A DNA stretch of 64,000 nt, taken from the NCBI RefSeq assembly GCF_006517175.1, contig NZ_CP041186.1:124001-188000 (forward strand). Reading direction: 5' to 3'. The translations under genes were made by a program, and so were the position numbers. Of the stretch, positions 33,310 through 39,840 are shown piece after piece. The DNA is from Persicimonas caeni (GTDB lineage Bacteria > Myxococcota_A > Bradymonadia > Bradymonadales > Bradymonadaceae). The first letter of the stretch is position 1; the number at the start of each line of letters is the position of its first letter. The notes under the pieces are model-generated. The model was not told the DNA's origin, ran no database searches, and saw only the letters and a program-made list of their open reading frames with translations.

Positions 33310-33858
33310 CTACAGGTTGCTTCGCACGTCGCCGATACGAAGGCCCCGACGGGCCAGTCGCTGCTTCAGGCGGCGTTGCATATTCGTGGTCAGGCGCTTT
33401 CCGTGTGTGGGTCGCATAGCGAGCACGTCGCGCCCTGGAGACGGTTCGCCGAACGGCCCTTCGGTGTCTGTCGTCAGGCTGTAGGCGTGGTCGACGGCGG
33501 AGCCGATGCTCACCGACGTCCGTCCGACTCGGAAGATGTGCAGGTCGTGGTTCGGGTCGGTCAGCGACGGGTAGAGCTGCTCGAAGGTGCCGCCCTTCTG
33601 CCACCGGAGTAGGTCGAGGTGCCCGACCTTCATGAGCTTGTACGCTGCGTAGAGCGGCTCCTGCGAGTAGTCGGCCCACGGCCTGCCGCCGTGGCGGCCC
33701 TCGGTCGCAAACTGCTTCTTGGAGTGCGCCAACATGAACGGGTGAACCACCTCAGTTGCGAGGTCGGGCCATACCCGCTCGATGTGAAGGTCGTTGGTCA
33801 CGCCCAGCAGCCGCGCGAAGGCGTCCTCGGTTCCGGCGCCGATGCGGACTTCAAGCAT
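33310..33858 (-). CDS. Phage virion morphogenesis (Mu gpG / neck-type) protein
   Basis: The protein is 182 aa. The central part (FMLAHSKKQFATEGRHGGRPWADYSQEPLYAAYK) matches the F..EG...W..Y pattern of the phage virion morphogenesis family. An Arg-rich C-terminus (TNMQRRLKQRLARRGLRIG) follows. These proteins take part in tail completion and head-tail joining. It overlaps the upstream gene by 8 bases. Confidence 0.7.
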   Translation of the reverse strand: MLEVRIGAGTEDAFARLLGVTNDLHIERVWPDLATEVVHPFMLAHSKKQFATEGRHGGRPWADYSQEPLYAAYKLMKVGHLDLLRWQKGGTFEQLYPSLTDPNHDLHIFRVGRTSVSIGSAVDHAYSLTTDTEGPFGEPSPGRDVLAMRPTHGKRLTTNMQRRLKQRLARRGLRIGDVRSNL

Positions 33859-34126
33859 GGGTCAACCGCTCGATGAGCTCGGGCTTGTTTCCCGACGTGG
33901 CAAGGTCGCGCTCGCGAAGGTGCTCTTTGAGTTCGTCGACGGTCAGCTCTTCCAGGGCTTCGGCCGGACGGTCTTCGACCGGCACGTCTTCGATGAGCTG
34001 GAACCAGTCGGGATGCGCCTCGTAAAGATCGTTGGGAATCACCGCGTAGTCCCGGTGACCCTTGGGCTCTTCGCCCTTCTCGAGGACGAGTTGCATCTGA
34101 CGAGTGATGACGACGTTCTTCGGCAT
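33851..34126 (-). CDS. Small phage protein with C-terminal SAP motif
   Basis: The protein is 91 aa. The C-terminal part LTVDELKEHLRERDLATSGNKPELIERL is a SAP-type helix-extended-loop-helix, which binds DNA in other contexts and is common in small phage head proteins. The N-half is of unknown fold. It lies in the connector cluster of the late operon. Confidence 0.7.
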   Translation of the reverse strand: MPKNVVITRQMQLVLEKGEEPKGHRDYAVIPNDLYEAHPDWFQLIEDVPVEDRPAEALEELTVDELKEHLRERDLATSGNKPELIERLTHA

Positions 34127-34129
34127 GGG

Positions 34130-34570
34130 CTACCACCCTGTGAACCCGTCCGTGTCCCACCTTTTCGGGGTGGGGTTGGCCGGGTCGACGTTGGAAGCGA
34201 TCTGATTCTCGGCTTTCTGGCTGTCTCCGAGGTCCTGTGGCGAGTCGCGCAGGGTCTTGCGAACCGAGCCCCACGTTTCCCACTGGCGGCGCACGTCGGC
34301 ATCTGAGGCGTTCGTGCGCGTGAGGCTCTTGGCCGCTGCGAAGGCGATGATGCCGCTTCGCACGAGCTCGGACTCGTCGTCGCCCAACGTGGTTGGTTCG
34401 ATGCCGTGCCGCGCCATGATGGCGTTGAGCTGGCCGGACGCCTGCGCGACCCACCGTTCGATCTGCGTCGTGTTCAGGGGCTCCGATGTCGCGTCCACAT
34501 GCGCGGTGCGCTGCGGCAGCTCGTCGAGTACGTCCTGAGCAGTGACGCTATGCGTGGTGGACACGGTCAT
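34130..34570 (-). CDS. Head-tail connector-like protein
   Basis: The protein is 146 aa and helical (TTQIERWVAQASGQLNAIMARHG ... AIAFAAAK-type helices). This resembles gp6/Gp15-type connector proteins in size and place, after the capsid and before the neck genes. It starts at the last base of the upstream gene. No family was recognised with certainty. Confidence 0.6.
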   Translation of the reverse strand: MTVSTTHSVTAQDVLDELPQRTAHVDATSEPLNTTQIERWVAQASGQLNAIMARHGIEPTTLGDDESELVRSGIIAFAAAKSLTRTNASDADVRRQWETWGSVRKTLRDSPQDLGDSQKAENQIASNVDPANPTPKRWDTDGFTGW

Positions 34571-34917
34571 TACTGAGCCTCAATGAAGTCTCGGAGAGCC
34601 TGTTTGCGGTCTTCGGTGCCCTTCGGCGTGGGCTCCTCACGATGCTCGGCGAGGAAGCTGCCCATCTCGCGCCAGTCTTCACGCTCGAGAACGCCGCGGG
34701 CTTCGGCCACCAGTCGCTTCTGTTCGAGGTCATCGGTGGGCGGCCCCAGCTCGATGGCGTCCGGCGGGGTGTCCTGCTCACTGTCGTCGGTCGCCGGCGG
34801 GGTGTCGGGCCCCCCTTCGCGGTCCTGACTCGGTGGGTCGGCATTGGTCGCCGTCAGCTTCTCGAACTCCTCGAGAGTTACCCATTTGCCCTTATGCTTG
34901 CGGTATGTCTTACCCAT
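34570..34917 (-). CDS. Acidic hypothetical phage protein
   Basis: The protein is 115 aa. It has a basic N-terminus (MGKTYRKHKGKWVTLEEFEKL), a central Asp/Pro-rich disordered stretch and a C-terminal helix. No family was recognised. It lies between the capsid and connector genes and may decorate or stabilise the head. Confidence 0.5.
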   Translation of the reverse strand: MGKTYRKHKGKWVTLEEFEKLTATNADPPSQDREGGPDTPPATDDSEQDTPPDAIELGPPTDDLEQKRLVAEARGVLEREDWREMGSFLAEHREEPTPKGTEDRKQALRDFIEAQ

Positions 34918-34961: not shown

Positions 34962-35201
34962 TCAGTTCGGCAGTGCGGCTTTCGGCTGCAGCGTCGCCCG
35001 CACAGCGCAGTCCTTGGCCTCCAGCAGCTTGCGCAACGCCGCGGTCAGCTCCGGGTTACTCGGCAGTTCAGCTGCCAGCTCTTCGGCCAGTTCACAGAAC
35101 GGACGAGAGACCGCCTGGAGGTGCTCCGGCAAGTGCTCGTAGGTGAAGAACTCGAGAAGGTGCGCGACCGACGGATGATGGTCTGTGGCTTCGTTCGCCA
35201 T
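34962..35201 (-). CDS. Acb2/Tad1 hairpin-domain-like protein (possible nucleotide sponge)
   Basis: The protein is 79 aa. The sequence LEFFTYEHLPEHLQAVSRPFCELAEELAAELPSNPEL...ALRKLLEAKDCAVRATL matches, as I recall it, the pattern of a widespread small phage family with the Acb2/Tad1 helical hairpin (HLP, PF..LA..L, LP..E, ALRKLLEAKD.AVRA). Acb2 and Tad1 sequester cyclic nucleotide signals of CBASS and Thoeris. The relation is from memory of the pattern; ligand binding here is inference. Its place right after the capsid gene ensures late expression. Confidence 0.55.
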   Translation of the reverse strand: MANEATDHHPSVAHLLEFFTYEHLPEHLQAVSRPFCELAEELAAELPSNPELTAALRKLLEAKDCAVRATLQPKAALPN

Positions 35202-35241
35202 CTGTTGCTCCGGTAGTGTTGATGAGTGCGGCAGATGAAGA

Positions 35242-35314: not shown

Positions 35315-36235
35315 TTATGCGACGTCCTGGAAGGCGATGAAGAAGTCCGGGACGACAACGATGATGGAGCCGTGCACGATGCCGTGGAGCTTGCGCACGT
35401 TGTCCGACTTGACGTCCTCGGTGACGAACTCCATGTCGCTCCAGTCGAGGTACAACAGGTTCGCCGAGTTGTAGGCGCACGCCTGGTCGGCGTTCAGCCG
35501 CTTGACGTCGGCCGTGTCGGTGATGGCGCCGTTCTGATAGACGACGTCGTTCAGGATGACCCGCTGGACCTTGAGGTAGTCCTCCAGGAAGCTCGCGATC
35601 TGACTGGAGGTCGCGTACTTCCAGCCGGTCTGGCTCTGGAACTGGTCGTGGTCTTGAAGCTGGTTCTGTTTCGTGGTGCCCAGGTAAACCGTGTCGGCCA
35701 AGCTATCCTGCACGGCGCTTCGCAGGTCACCCAACGGGTCGGAGTTGGGGTCGTCCCAGGTCTCGCTCGCGCCCGCCGAGAGCTGACGGACGGTGACGTC
35801 CTGCGCGTTGGTCACGGCGGTGCCGCTACCGGACAGGATGGTGTTGAGTTCGAAGTCCTTCTCGAAAGCCGCCTGCGTGTCGAGGTGCGGGACGAAGCTC
35901 TCTTTGATCTTCTGGAAGAGCTGGTCGCCCTCTAGGCCGCGGGCGTACGACTTGTGATTCTGGATCTTCTGAATCTTGAAGTCGCGGTCGCTGACCGGGG
36001 TCCCCATCTCCTCGGACGTGGCGTCGAGCGCGCGGAAGCCCGACAGGCTGTTGGTGGCGACGATGGCCTGAAAGTCGAGGGACTTGATTTTCCCCTCGAT
36101 GCCGGGGATGGCCGACTTCGGCACCTTCTGGCACATGACGTCGACCATGCTGGTCTTGAGTTCGCCCTCTTCCTTGAGGCCCTTGTAGACCTCTTTGGCG
36201 CGGGCGTCGTTGATTTGCGTCTGATCGAAAGGCAT
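35315..36235 (-). CDS. Major capsid protein
   Basis: The protein is 306 aa, starting after a perfect GGAGG site. It follows the protease/scaffold gene, and its size fits a phage major head protein. The sequence includes DFQAIVATNSLSGFRALDATSEEMGTPVSDRDFKIQKIQNHKSYARGLEGD and GSIIVVVPDFFIAFQDVA near the end. No exact family was named, but the genome position between scaffold and connectors is diagnostic. It is probably the most highly expressed gene of the element. Confidence 0.8.
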   Translation of the reverse strand: MPFDQTQINDARAKEVYKGLKEEGELKTSMVDVMCQKVPKSAIPGIEGKIKSLDFQAIVATNSLSGFRALDATSEEMGTPVSDRDFKIQKIQNHKSYARGLEGDQLFQKIKESFVPHLDTQAAFEKDFELNTILSGSGTAVTNAQDVTVRQLSAGASETWDDPNSDPLGDLRSAVQDSLADTVYLGTTKQNQLQDHDQFQSQTGWKYATSSQIASFLEDYLKVQRVILNDVVYQNGAITDTADVKRLNADQACAYNSANLLYLDWSDMEFVTEDVKSDNVRKLHGIVHGSIIVVVPDFFIAFQDVA

Positions 36236-36356: not shown

Positions 36357-36887
36357 CTACTGGTTCATCTCGAGCTCGATCGCTTCGAGCCGCGAGCAGT
36401 CGTGCTTCTTCATCAGGCTGTCGATCTTCTTCTCGTAGCTCAGGTTGACCGCCGGTGCCTCGGGGTCGCCCTGGTGACCGAGCTCTTCGGTCTTGAGCTT
36501 CGACAGCCGGGGGATCGTCTTGTCGTGCCCGGCGAGCTTCTCGAAGCCGGAGTTGACCTTGTCGACCAAGTTGGCGAGCTTCGACAGCTTGGCTTCGGCC
36601 GCACTCGTGTCGACGTCCAGAACGGTCGTGGTGCTGCCGGGCCCGGCGTCGCTGTCATCGGTCTCCGACTCGTCTTCGGAGGCGGACTCGTCGTCGCTGG
36701 CGCCCTCCTCTTCGGGCTCTTCGTCGGTGGCGCCGACGTCTTCGGTCTCTTCGGACTCGTCGACGTCGGGCTCGGGGTCTTCGTCGGCCTCCAGGGCGTC
36801 GAGACGAGCGGCCACCGAGTCGACGGTCTTACCCATCTGGTCGACGGTCTTGGTCAGGGCTTCGAGCTTCTTGAGTAGTTCTTCCAT
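36357..36887 (-). CDS. Nested scaffold protein (internal start in the protease gene)
   Basis: An in-frame ATG at 36887 (MEELLKKLEALTKTVDQMGKT) marks the start of the coiled-coil/acidic scaffold half. GGGAG lies 8 bases upstream. The product would be 176 aa, matching the nested scaffold arrangement of lambda C/Nu3 and Mu I/Z. This is predicted from the start signal and domain boundary only. Confidence 0.55.
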   Translation of the reverse strand: MEELLKKLEALTKTVDQMGKTVDSVAARLDALEADEDPEPDVDESEETEDVGATDEEPEEEGASDDESASEDESETDDSDAGPGSTTTVLDVDTSAAEAKLSKLANLVDKVNSGFEKLAGHDKTIPRLSKLKTEELGHQGDPEAPAVNLSYEKKIDSLMKKHDCSRLEAIELEMNQ

Positions 36888-37454
36888 GTCATCTGCTCCC
36901 AGTTGGATGGAGAGTTGCGTGAGTGCGTCTTGCGACAGGTTGACGGCCAAGGTGTCTTGAATGGTGCCGATCGACTTCAGAAACGGGTCGGCCGTCAGCG
37001 ACACCTCACGGATGACCGGCCCGAAGGACTCCCCGCTCTCGACGGTGTACTCGGGGACGATGCCCGCGGAGACGTACTTGATCTTTCCGGCGTCGATGGC
37101 CTTCTGAGCGTCTTCGGTGCGACTGAGCTTGACCCACACGCCGTTGAACCCGCCGTGCTTCGTGAGCTTCACGTCGTCGACGGAGCCGTCGCGCTCGGTC
37201 TTGGGTTGGTGCTCCCTCCAGATCGGTTGGCGGTAGGCTTCCCCGCCCCCTTCTCGAGCCTTCTGGTCGAAGTAGGCGTTGAGCCGCTGCGTCTCCGACA
37301 CGAGATTGGTGAGGTAGTCGGCCGACAGCTCGATGGTGCGGCCGTGGTAGTCGATGGTTTCCCCCAGGGGGAGCACCTTGACCCACGAGGTGCGCTTGCC
37401 CTCCGCGTCGGCGAGCTTGATCCAGTAGTTGAGCTGTTCGGGTGCCTTAGTCAT
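36357..37454 (-). CDS. Prohead protease fused to scaffold region (Mu gpI-like)
   Basis: The protein is 365 aa. The N-terminal 170 residues resemble phage head maturation proteases of the gpI type, with KYVSAGIVPEYTVESGESFGPVIREVSLTADPFLKSIGTIQ in place of the usual Ser...sLT..P motif. The C-terminal half is a coiled coil and a very acidic Asp/Glu/Ser stretch ending in a helical domain, the typical scaffold. In Mu and lambda the scaffold is also made from an internal start in the same frame, and one is visible here at 36887. Confidence 0.75.
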   Translation of the reverse strand: MTKAPEQLNYWIKLADAEGKRTSWVKVLPLGETIDYHGRTIELSADYLTNLVSETQRLNAYFDQKAREGGGEAYRQPIWREHQPKTERDGSVDDVKLTKHGGFNGVWVKLSRTEDAQKAIDAGKIKYVSAGIVPEYTVESGESFGPVIREVSLTADPFLKSIGTIQDTLAVNLSQDALTQLSIQLGADDMEELLKKLEALTKTVDQMGKTVDSVAARLDALEADEDPEPDVDESEETEDVGATDEEPEEEGASDDESASEDESETDDSDAGPGSTTTVLDVDTSAAEAKLSKLANLVDKVNSGFEKLAGHDKTIPRLSKLKTEELGHQGDPEAPAVNLSYEKKIDSLMKKHDCSRLEAIELEMNQ

Positions 37455-39840
37455 GGGCGGTGTCCTGCGTCAGCGTGATGACGTGGCGGAGGTAGGGGTC
37501 GGCGAAGCCTGTGACCTTGCTGCCGCCGGCGTCGAGCTCGGCGAGGATATCGCGGTAGCCCTGCTCCGCCGGCAAGATCGCGTTCATCAGGCACAGGCAG
37601 GTATCCGACGGCCCCTCGTGGTTTCGGTACGGCGGCTTGTCGCGCTGGTACGGCTTGGAGTTCAGGAAGTAGCGGCGGCCGTCGTTCTGGCGGCACGGCT
37701 CGCACGAGTCCTCTTCCATCACCGAGCTGAACTCCATGACGATACGGGTGTCCCCGATGCCGCGGGCTTCAGCCTCGTTGCGGATGCGCTGGACGATCTG
37801 CTCGCGCCCGTAGTTGAACGTTCGCTGGGTGTAGCGTTGGGCGTGCTTGGCAAAGGCGGACGCCGTGGGAATCTGAGGCTTGAGCTTCTCCGGGGCGTCC
37901 TCGGGGAGCTCCACCACGGCGTTGCTGTCCAAGTAGCTCTGCGTCACGTTGATCGCGTGCTGGGCGATCCGCTGGGCCTGCATGTCGATGTGGCGGTGGA
38001 ACTGGTCAGACAGGCGCTTGAGGCCGTAGACCTTGTCGGGGTTGCCCGCCGACTTGGACACACGCGGCAGCGGCAGTTGGCCCTGCTCGACTTCGAGCGC
38101 CCCGAGCTGGCGGAGCTGTGCCGCGCTACCCTTGAGGGCCAGACGGTTGAGCTCGAACTTGATGGTATCGGCGTACCGATCGAGGTACTGATCTCGGACG
38201 GCCCGGCTCATGCGCATCAGTCGTTGCGGGTCCGAGACGTTGCGCGTCAGCTCGACGTACCGGTCACGATATTCGGCCGCGGTCTTTCTGAGCGCCCGAC
38301 CGATCTCGTTGTTGCTCTCCAAGACCCACTTTCGCAGCTTCTCCGGGTCGTAGTTGAGCTCCGTCGGCCGCTCCAGTAGTACGAAGTCACCGACGCGGAT
38401 GGCGCGTTCTGCGTGCGACTCACCGGGCCGCGGCGGCTCATGCGAGAACTGACTCTCTTGGTCGTCCGTCGCGTCTTCTTCGTCCCCGTCGGGGTTGGTC
38501 GGAGGCGTCTTGCTCTCGTCGACCGGAGCGAGGTCGAGATACTCTCGCACCTTGTTCTGGACCTCGGTGTCATTCGGGTCGATGAAGCCCGCCTGCGTCG
38601 CTTTGGTCAGATTCTCCAGCCAGTCGGGGTCCTTGGTATCCGAGCCCAGCGAGAACGTGAGCTTGGGCATGAACCGCGGATTGATCGGCGCGCCGAACGC
38701 GTTGCGGATGATGCGCGGGACAATGTGCTCGTTGATGAGCGCACACACCTGCTCGCCGAAGTAGCGGATACGCCGGATGTTCTCGACGTTGTCCTTGATT
38801 TCGGCGAGGTTGTACGTCCCGGTGTCCCCCAGCCCCACGAGTGAGCCCGTCGACTTGAGCGCGAGGCTGATTTGCTCGTCGCAGTAGCGGCGAAGGGCCT
38901 CGAAGTCGGGCAGGTTCCCGTTCGGGGAGATGCGCTCGTAGAGAAAGCGCCCGATGTAGACGATGGGATCGTCGGAGGCCGCGGCCGCCTCGAGCTCGGC
39001 GATGACCTTCTTGAGGTCGTCGGTGTCGGCCTTGCCCTCGGGGTCTCGAACGACGCCGGTGCCGTTTCCGTGGGACTCGGCAGCAGCCGTCTCGATCTGC
39101 GTGATGAGCTGCTTGATTTCGACCCAGCGCACCACCGGCCGAAGTGCCGATAGTCCCTCCAGGTCGAGCCCGATACCCGTCGAGTACAACAGCAGGTGCT
39201 CAGACGAGATCGTGACGTCCGGGAAATTGGAGCCGTCGTACTCGAAGGACGTACCGGCCCAGTCGCGCCCATCCTCGGTAAACAGCCACTTTCCGACGGT
39301 GCCCGGCCGACGGTACTTGAGCGCGTTGATGCCGCCGTCGGTGGCGTCAACGATCTCCCACAGGCTGAAGCCGTAGACGCGGTCGCCGAACGTCCAGCCC
39401 TTGAGGAAGTCCGACCAGTGCGACGGTCTGGAGTCGATCAGCGTGTGCTGGCAGAACTTCGCGTGGCGCTCTACACTCTTGCGAATGCCCGCCGGGGTCT
39501 TCTCGGGAACGACGAACGTCCACTGCCCGCTCGCAAGCCCCTCGTGGGTCGCGTCGACCGATGACTTGACCAGCGGATCGCTCACATACGTCTGCCACAG
39601 GACGCCGGGGTCGCCTTTGACGCCGCGGGCCCGATAGCTGAAGTCGGGCGTGTTGTCTTTGCCCCGCGGCAGCCCGCGCTCGTAGCGCACGTTCGGGTAG
39701 CCCTGCTCCTCGAGGTTCTGAACGAGCGTGAAGGCTTTGCCCCCGTCGATGACCTCCCACGCGGGGTTGTCGTCGGCCTCGTGCAGACGTTTGCACAGCT
39801 TGGTGACGCCGTACTTCTTGTGAAGGTCGGGAGCTCCCAT
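37447..39840 (-). CDS. Portal protein fused to gpF-like head morphogenesis domain
   Basis: The protein is 797 aa, too long for a portal alone. Residues 1-430 resemble Mu gp29/DUF935 portals (LKGWTFGDRVYGFSLWEIVDATDGGINALKYRRPG ... VGLGDTGTYNLAEIKDNVENIRRIRYF). A charged linker follows. The C-terminal 250 residues form a gpF-type head morphogenesis domain ending in a Cys-rich motif (EEDSCEPCRQNDGRRYF ... HEGPSDTCLC). The two are separate genes in Mu. It overlaps the protease gene by 8 bases. Confidence 0.82.
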   Translation of the reverse strand: MGAPDLHKKYGVTKLCKRLHEADDNPAWEVIDGGKAFTLVQNLEEQGYPNVRYERGLPRGKDNTPDFSYRARGVKGDPGVLWQTYVSDPLVKSSVDATHEGLASGQWTFVVPEKTPAGIRKSVERHAKFCQHTLIDSRPSHWSDFLKGWTFGDRVYGFSLWEIVDATDGGINALKYRRPGTVGKWLFTEDGRDWAGTSFEYDGSNFPDVTISSEHLLLYSTGIGLDLEGLSALRPVVRWVEIKQLITQIETAAAESHGNGTGVVRDPEGKADTDDLKKVIAELEAAAASDDPIVYIGRFLYERISPNGNLPDFEALRRYCDEQISLALKSTGSLVGLGDTGTYNLAEIKDNVENIRRIRYFGEQVCALINEHIVPRIIRNAFGAPINPRFMPKLTFSLGSDTKDPDWLENLTKATQAGFIDPNDTEVQNKVREYLDLAPVDESKTPPTNPDGDEEDATDDQESQFSHEPPRPGESHAERAIRVGDFVLLERPTELNYDPEKLRKWVLESNNEIGRALRKTAAEYRDRYVELTRNVSDPQRLMRMSRAVRDQYLDRYADTIKFELNRLALKGSAAQLRQLGALEVEQGQLPLPRVSKSAGNPDKVYGLKRLSDQFHRHIDMQAQRIAQHAINVTQSYLDSNAVVELPEDAPEKLKPQIPTASAFAKHAQRYTQRTFNYGREQIVQRIRNEAEARGIGDTRIVMEFSSVMEEDSCEPCRQNDGRRYFLNSKPYQRDKPPYRNHEGPSDTCLCLMNAILPAEQGYRDILAELDAGGSKVTGFADPYLRHVITLTQDTAHD

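Follow-up and report, generated by a model that had tools for sequence, protein, structure and literature searches.

The window analysed here is a stretch of 64,000 nucleotides (positions 124001-188000) from the 8.05-Mb single-contig genome of Persicimonas caeni, and it carries an ORF for a 79-aa protein whose gene is present in that genome in a single copy (Table 1). A sequence-only reading of the window had taken this ORF for a probable anti-defence sponge of the Acb2/Tad1 type, encoded in a phage head operon. The minus-strand ORF, the sequence motif quoted in that reading, an ATG start and a GGAG ribosome-binding site are all present, and the ORF is a real gene, far from a chance frame. The assignment to a head operon is likewise borne out, because the genes recognised as a major head protein (PHROG 1005), a Mu-like protease (PF10123) and a Mu portal (PF06074) lie upstream on the same strand. 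The carrier of the gene is a Mu-like prophage (a dormant phage).

Table 1. Features of the 79-aa gene and its operon (window coordinates)
Feature	Position	Strand	Evidence
79-aa three-helix protein, predicted nucleotide-signal sponge	34962..35201	-	ORF, PHROG matches, homology, AF2 model
GGAG ribosome-binding site, 6 nt before ATG	35208..35211	-	read from sequence
Major head protein gene, directly upstream of the 79-aa ORF (gap 113 nt)	35315..36235	-	PHROG 1005, E 7.6e-6
Mu-like head protease/scaffold gene	36357..37454	-	PF10123, E 4.4e-8; PHROG 328
Mu-like portal gene with head-morphogenesis part	37447..39840	-	PF06074, E 2.4e-22; PHROGs 113 and 1657
115-aa gene directly downstream of the 79-aa ORF, without informative match	34570..34917	-	ORF list, Pfam and PHROG scans

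The same operon also encodes a 91-aa protein with a SAP domain (33851-34126, minus strand; PF02037, E 3.6e-13), which is unexpected among head-tail genes. The intergenic region that separates the 79-aa gene from the capsid gene contains an inverted repeat that appeared tRNA-like by eye; ARAGORN and Rfam gave no match there, and its predicted fold is no better than that of shuffled sequences (z 0.17), so that the tRNA reading was discarded.

The 79-aa protein matches PHROG 1761 (3.9e-31) and PHROG 5120 (4.8e-28), both of function unknown. Consistent with the claim of a widespread small phage family, relatives are found in 332 of 50,697 phage records (tblastn, E ≤ 0.01) and are encoded by at least 583 IMG/VR stretches (583 of the 600 listed). 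Their carriers include phages of Gordonia, Vibrio, Erwinia, Acinetobacter, Mycobacterium and roseobacters. All 60 of the 332 matches that were listed are annotated 'hypothetical protein', and among the 60 listed of 365 records at E ≤ 1 the gene is otherwise named only 'Pas23' or 'occludin homology domain protein'. Within the host phylum, 6 of the 377 sampled genomes carry the family (E ≤ 1e-5), and 4 of the same 377 contain a match to the Acb2_Tad1_hairpin model PF24729 above its cut-off. In the literature and PDB searched, we recognised no paper that describes the PHROG 1761/5120 branch and found no experimentally tested member.

Two alignments of the family were used. The first (A1) combines the window protein with 70 relatives: of the IMG/VR stretches 80 loci were kept, three of which had no usable start, and from the resulting 77 proteins seven were omitted as near duplicates or long versions. 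The members of A1 share 49-72% identity with the window protein. Residues 58-65 are invariant in A1 partly by construction, because both the search seed (KLLEAKDC) and the extraction pattern (LLEAKDC) select for it. The second (A4) comprises 17 proteins, the window protein and 16 phage proteins obtained by tblastn with no motif required. In A4, L28, L59, E61, K63 and V67 are invariant (n = 17), and H23, L24, P25, S32, A39, E51, L56, D64 and R68 are conserved in at least 90% of members.

The check proposed in the sequence-only reading, a search with the Acb2/Tad1 hairpin profile, came out negative for the protein itself: PF24729 gives no match at E ≤ 1 to the 79-aa protein, which lies below the curated cut-off of 27 bits, and none in its own genome. 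Among relatives, 3 of 71, 2 of 17 and 1 of 4 members of overlapping sets match the model, all below the cut-off and with a best E of 0.0079. The 79-aa protein gave nothing meaningful when scanned with Pfam, NCBIfam or PADLOC. Since PF24729 does not recognise the protein, a canonical hairpin family was built for profile comparison from two seeds, L087 (which PF24729 matches with 79.7 bits) and L088; these and 48 of the 52 distinct proteins recovered at 80 IMG/VR loci form the alignment A2. In hhalign, A1 and A2 align in register over 53 columns, with a probability of 39.5 and E 3e-4. A rerun on trimmed columns gives a score of 28.25 (probability 74.8), against maxima of 21.5 for 300 column permutations and 25.0 for 300 block shuffles, and 9.8 for the reversed profile.

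Reciprocal searches were made in a database of 13,382 ORFs, consisting of 98 family, 84 canonical, 24 T4-type and 13,176 other sequences, in which family and canonical members were labelled by profile matches below 1e-6 and T4-type members by motif. At E ≤ 1, the A4 profile matches 59 of the 84 canonical hairpin proteins and 3 of the 13,176 others, and the A1 profile matches 54 of the canonical proteins and 3 others. In the reverse direction, the A2 profile matches 41 of the 98 family members, all 24 Acb2-type proteins of T4 kind and 11 others, and at least four of the six best others given are themselves T4-type sequences missed by the motif. The window protein alone reaches only E 7.4 against A2. 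PHROG 1454 is shared by the canonical L087 (1.2e-30), T4 Vs.4 (7e-4) and the 79-aa protein (0.0034). The best PDB match of the A1 profile, Gp22 (8jaj, E 0.0076), covers part of a 529-residue chain and was judged unrelated; matches of the 79-aa protein to TetR_C_11, DPS and 'occludin' were rejected as sub-threshold helical noise, and designed helical repeats and Dps, found by phmmer in the PDB, were set aside.

The AF2 model of the 79-aa protein (pLDDT 90.4) contains helices at residues 10-16, 26-45 and 50-71, of which the two long ones (pLDDT about 95-98) form an antiparallel hairpin. By comparison, the helices of the canonical family span residues 3-11, 21-40 and 45-67, so that the long helices are equal in length and spacing. 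As modelled, the 79-aa protein thus resembles Acb2 in helix order, with a short helix followed by two long ones. In a Foldseek search of BFVD, a set of predicted structures of viral proteins, the first six ranks are 35-55% identical to the 79-aa protein, and named Acb2/Tad1 hairpin proteins appear at ranks 8 (probability 0.99), 14 and 46 (0.44 each). Against the PDB, neither Foldseek nor VIA lists a chain of Acb2 or Tad1 for the 79-aa model. The canonical control model likewise finds no Acb2, but VIA lists Tad1 for it (Z 5.1, rmsd 2.5, 44 aligned), so the missing PDB match of the 79-aa model is a weak but not nil negative. Because the profile matches are reciprocal and decoy-controlled, the hhalign score lies above all 600 shuffles, and the three-helix fold and the Foldseek matches agree, profiles and model together place the 79-aa protein as a homologue of the Acb2/Tad1 hairpin at superfamily level, wider than the Pfam model. 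Of the kinship originally claimed, superfamily homology therefore stands and membership of PF24729 by the Pfam cut-off does not; the best reading is that PHROG 1761/5120 form a separate, large and so far unannotated sister branch of the superfamily.

T4 Acb2 (Vs.4) is described (PMC10097602) as a hexamer binding three cGAMP molecules, with Y8, H11, K23, R79 and F82 contacting the ligand, L29, A66, A73 and A77 lining the hexamer interface, and S74N perturbing binding. These residues were mapped onto the 79-aa protein through the hhalign registers of A1 with A2 and of A1 with T4 Vs.4 alone, the latter being weak (probability 3.2, E 0.014). In this register, the ligand contacts Y8, K23, R79 and F82 correspond to Y21, S32, R68 and L71, and the interface residues L29, A66, A73 and A77 to L38, A55, A62 and A66, respectively; S74 corresponds to K63, and His23 is a possible counterpart of H11 across an alignment gap. 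In A4, position 21 is aromatic in 16 of 17 proteins, Arg68 is kept in 16 of 17 and Lys63 in 17 of 17. At the interface, position 38 is hydrophobic in 15 of 17, and positions 55 and 62 are small in all 17. By comparison, position 66 is small in only 8 of 17 and often bulky, and Lys23 and Phe82 of T4 have no conserved counterpart, being replaced by Ser32 and by Leu/Val71 (an aromatic residue in none of the 17). By this alignment the majority of oligomer contacts and roughly half of the ligand contacts are retained and the others changed, which suggests that the ligand site of this branch is related but not identical to that of T4 Acb2.

Our comparison with known systems reveals both shared and distinct features. 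The canonical PF24729/PHROG 1454 proteins, a few actinophage members of which are annotated 'cyclic nucleotide sequestering protein', are homologous to the 79-aa protein over the approximately 53 columns in register, and share its three helices, an aromatic-x-His/His start and a P...E...A..KL.EA core. The 79-aa protein differs from them in scoring below the Pfam cut-off, in a loop before helix 2 that is 4 residues shorter, and in Lys63, Arg68 and Ser32, where the canonical family has Val, Ala and Arg, respectively. Acb2 of T4 (Vs.4, PDB 7uq2) and of p26 (8h2j) likewise consists of a short helix and two long antiparallel helices, and the 79-aa protein has counterparts of Tyr8, Arg79, Leu29, Ala66 and Ala73 but not of Lys23 and Phe82, with an often bulky counterpart of Ala77. 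T4 Acb2 is a hexamer that binds cGAMP, properties that are hypothetical for the 79-aa protein. Tad1 belongs to the same helical hairpin superfamily and has an N-terminal beta sheet (PMC12043709); by comparison, the model of the 79-aa protein is all helical, with no strand. PDB 9ptq, 'Acb2 homolog 43', is matched by the canonical L087 (E 4e-4) and weakly by the A1 profile (E 0.81, rank 6 of 10); judged by its title and a partial alignment, it is no close relative of the 79-aa branch. The statement that known members bind cyclic nucleotides holds for the distant cousins Acb2 and Tad1, and does not extend to the 79-aa branch, for which the searches named above yielded no tested member.

The position of the gene varies among phages. 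By our own classification of 16 annotated phages, it lies in the head module in 4 (martha, DumpsterDude, Perlina and Aclw_8), in tail or lysis regions in 3 (Morrissey, AGM5 and Camerico), and elsewhere or unassigned in 9; besides the head operon, relatives occupy lysis, tail and early regions as well as regions that are unassigned. At 19 IMG/VR loci, twenty long neighbouring genes, picked for length rather than at random, comprise 8 head or packaging genes, 3 lysis genes, 2 integrases and 1 recombination gene; for the other 6 no function is named. The distribution of the gene is that of cargo, frequently lodged in late operons, and the capsid operon is one of several sites. Production of the protein alongside capsid or packaging genes is suggestive, because TIR systems are reported to sense capsids (PMC12578639) and a CBASS-triggering RNA to derive from terminase genes (PMC10686824).

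The host genome was searched for corresponding defences. No SMODS cyclase was found, with controls matched; a SAVED search gave no match, but its controls were likewise without a match, which makes this negative uninformative. One TIR_2 protein is present, at most a candidate for Thoeris: a stand-alone TIR-domain protein of 358 aa at locus L244 (C1:4174336-4174620, minus strand), beside an ORF that resembles a tyrosine recombinase by eye.

Several other explanations of the 79-aa protein were weighed against the sponge. If the resemblance arose by convergence of helical hairpins, the protein would be an unrelated small helical protein; single sequences indeed match PF24729 weakly or not at all, and helical bundles yield many middling structural matches, but the decoy-controlled reciprocal search, the shuffled-profile controls, the matched helix lengths and the aligned P...E...A..KL.EA register make this account very improbable. 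The protein could also belong to the head module, its gene lying between that of the major head protein and the head genes further downstream; it might then be a small factor that aids assembly, decorates the head or forms part of a connector. Such a role would agree with the gene order in the window, with the identical placement behind the capsid gene in Perlina and DumpsterDude, and with the head-module sites in martha and Aclw_8. It is improbable, however, given that the gene lies outside the head module in 12 of the 16 annotated phages, that its IMG/VR neighbours include endolysin, integrase and recombination genes, and that the protein is homologous to Acb2.

The hairpin could also have been inherited and turned to another job, such as directly blocking a host protein (in anti-defence or takeover) or regulating a housekeeping nucleotide. 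The partly kept pocket, which has lost the counterparts of Lys23 and Phe82, would fit such a change, as would the strongly conserved E61, K63, D64 and R68, which could form a protein-binding face, and the extra N-terminal modules of some relatives (P0001; L017, L026 and L031). Against this stand the retained counterparts of Tyr8 and Arg79 and of most small interface residues, and the binding of nucleotide signals by the tested superfamily members cited (T4 Vs.4/Acb2 and Tad1); we consider this explanation unlikely.

The best explanation is that the 79-aa protein represents the PHROG 1761/5120 branch of the hairpin superfamily and is most likely a small-oligomer sponge for a nucleotide immune signal, with a probability of roughly 0.62. 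By analogy with the Acb2/Tad1 sponges, it probably soaks up a bacterial immune signal. The protein would form a small oligomer, most probably hexameric like Acb2, and bind a phosphate-bearing nucleotide signal at its subunit interfaces, with Tyr21 stacking on a base and Arg68, perhaps together with Lys63 and His23, contacting the phosphates. Candidate ligands are a cyclic di- or trinucleotide or cyclic ADP-ribose, whose sequestration would keep the defence effector off. Transcribed after the major capsid gene, the sponge would be made late, as capsid accumulates. Besides the homology, the model and the conserved residues, the cargo-like spread of the gene speaks for this explanation. Against it weigh the score below the PF24729 cut-off, the E of 7.4 of the window protein alone with A2, the lost counterparts of Lys23 and Phe82, the often bulky position 66, the PDB fold searches that list neither Acb2 nor Tad1, the weak direct alignment with T4 Vs.4, the lack of a SMODS match in the host genome and the lack of any tested member of the branch in the literature and PDB searched.

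A bolder version of the sponge reading, which we put forward tentatively and regard as rather doubtful, is that the branch, with its own pocket of H-L-P loop, Lys63 and Arg68, captures a signal outside the known Acb2/Tad1 range, and that head-operon carriers make it together with the capsid and packaging proteins, whose products can trigger CBASS or Thoeris. Should signal sequestration extend to this branch, hairpin sponges would prove much more widespread, hundreds of 'hypothetical proteins' would acquire a function that can be tested, and the changed pocket would point to signals beyond the reach of known sponges.

Some relatives carry additional sequence. In a 142-aa protein of Erwinia phage pEa_SNUABM_18 (L236:2779-3207), the hairpin is preceded by a fused N-terminal portion that has the P-loop motif GPVGAGKS and a weak AAA_30 match (E 0.0062). 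In-frame N-terminal extensions of about 70-100 residues in L017, L026 and L031 share a common module, 'MGQAFD...REVF.KL', and have no Pfam match; the protein at L079:2531-2911 bears an in-frame N-terminal extension with a Cys-rich, zinc-ribbon-like stretch. At one end of locus L047, the minus strand encodes 78 residues (ORF L047_-1_0) that match the family profile (E 3.6e-5) but lack the core motif; this may be a remoter hairpin protein on a phage contig that also carries a family member.
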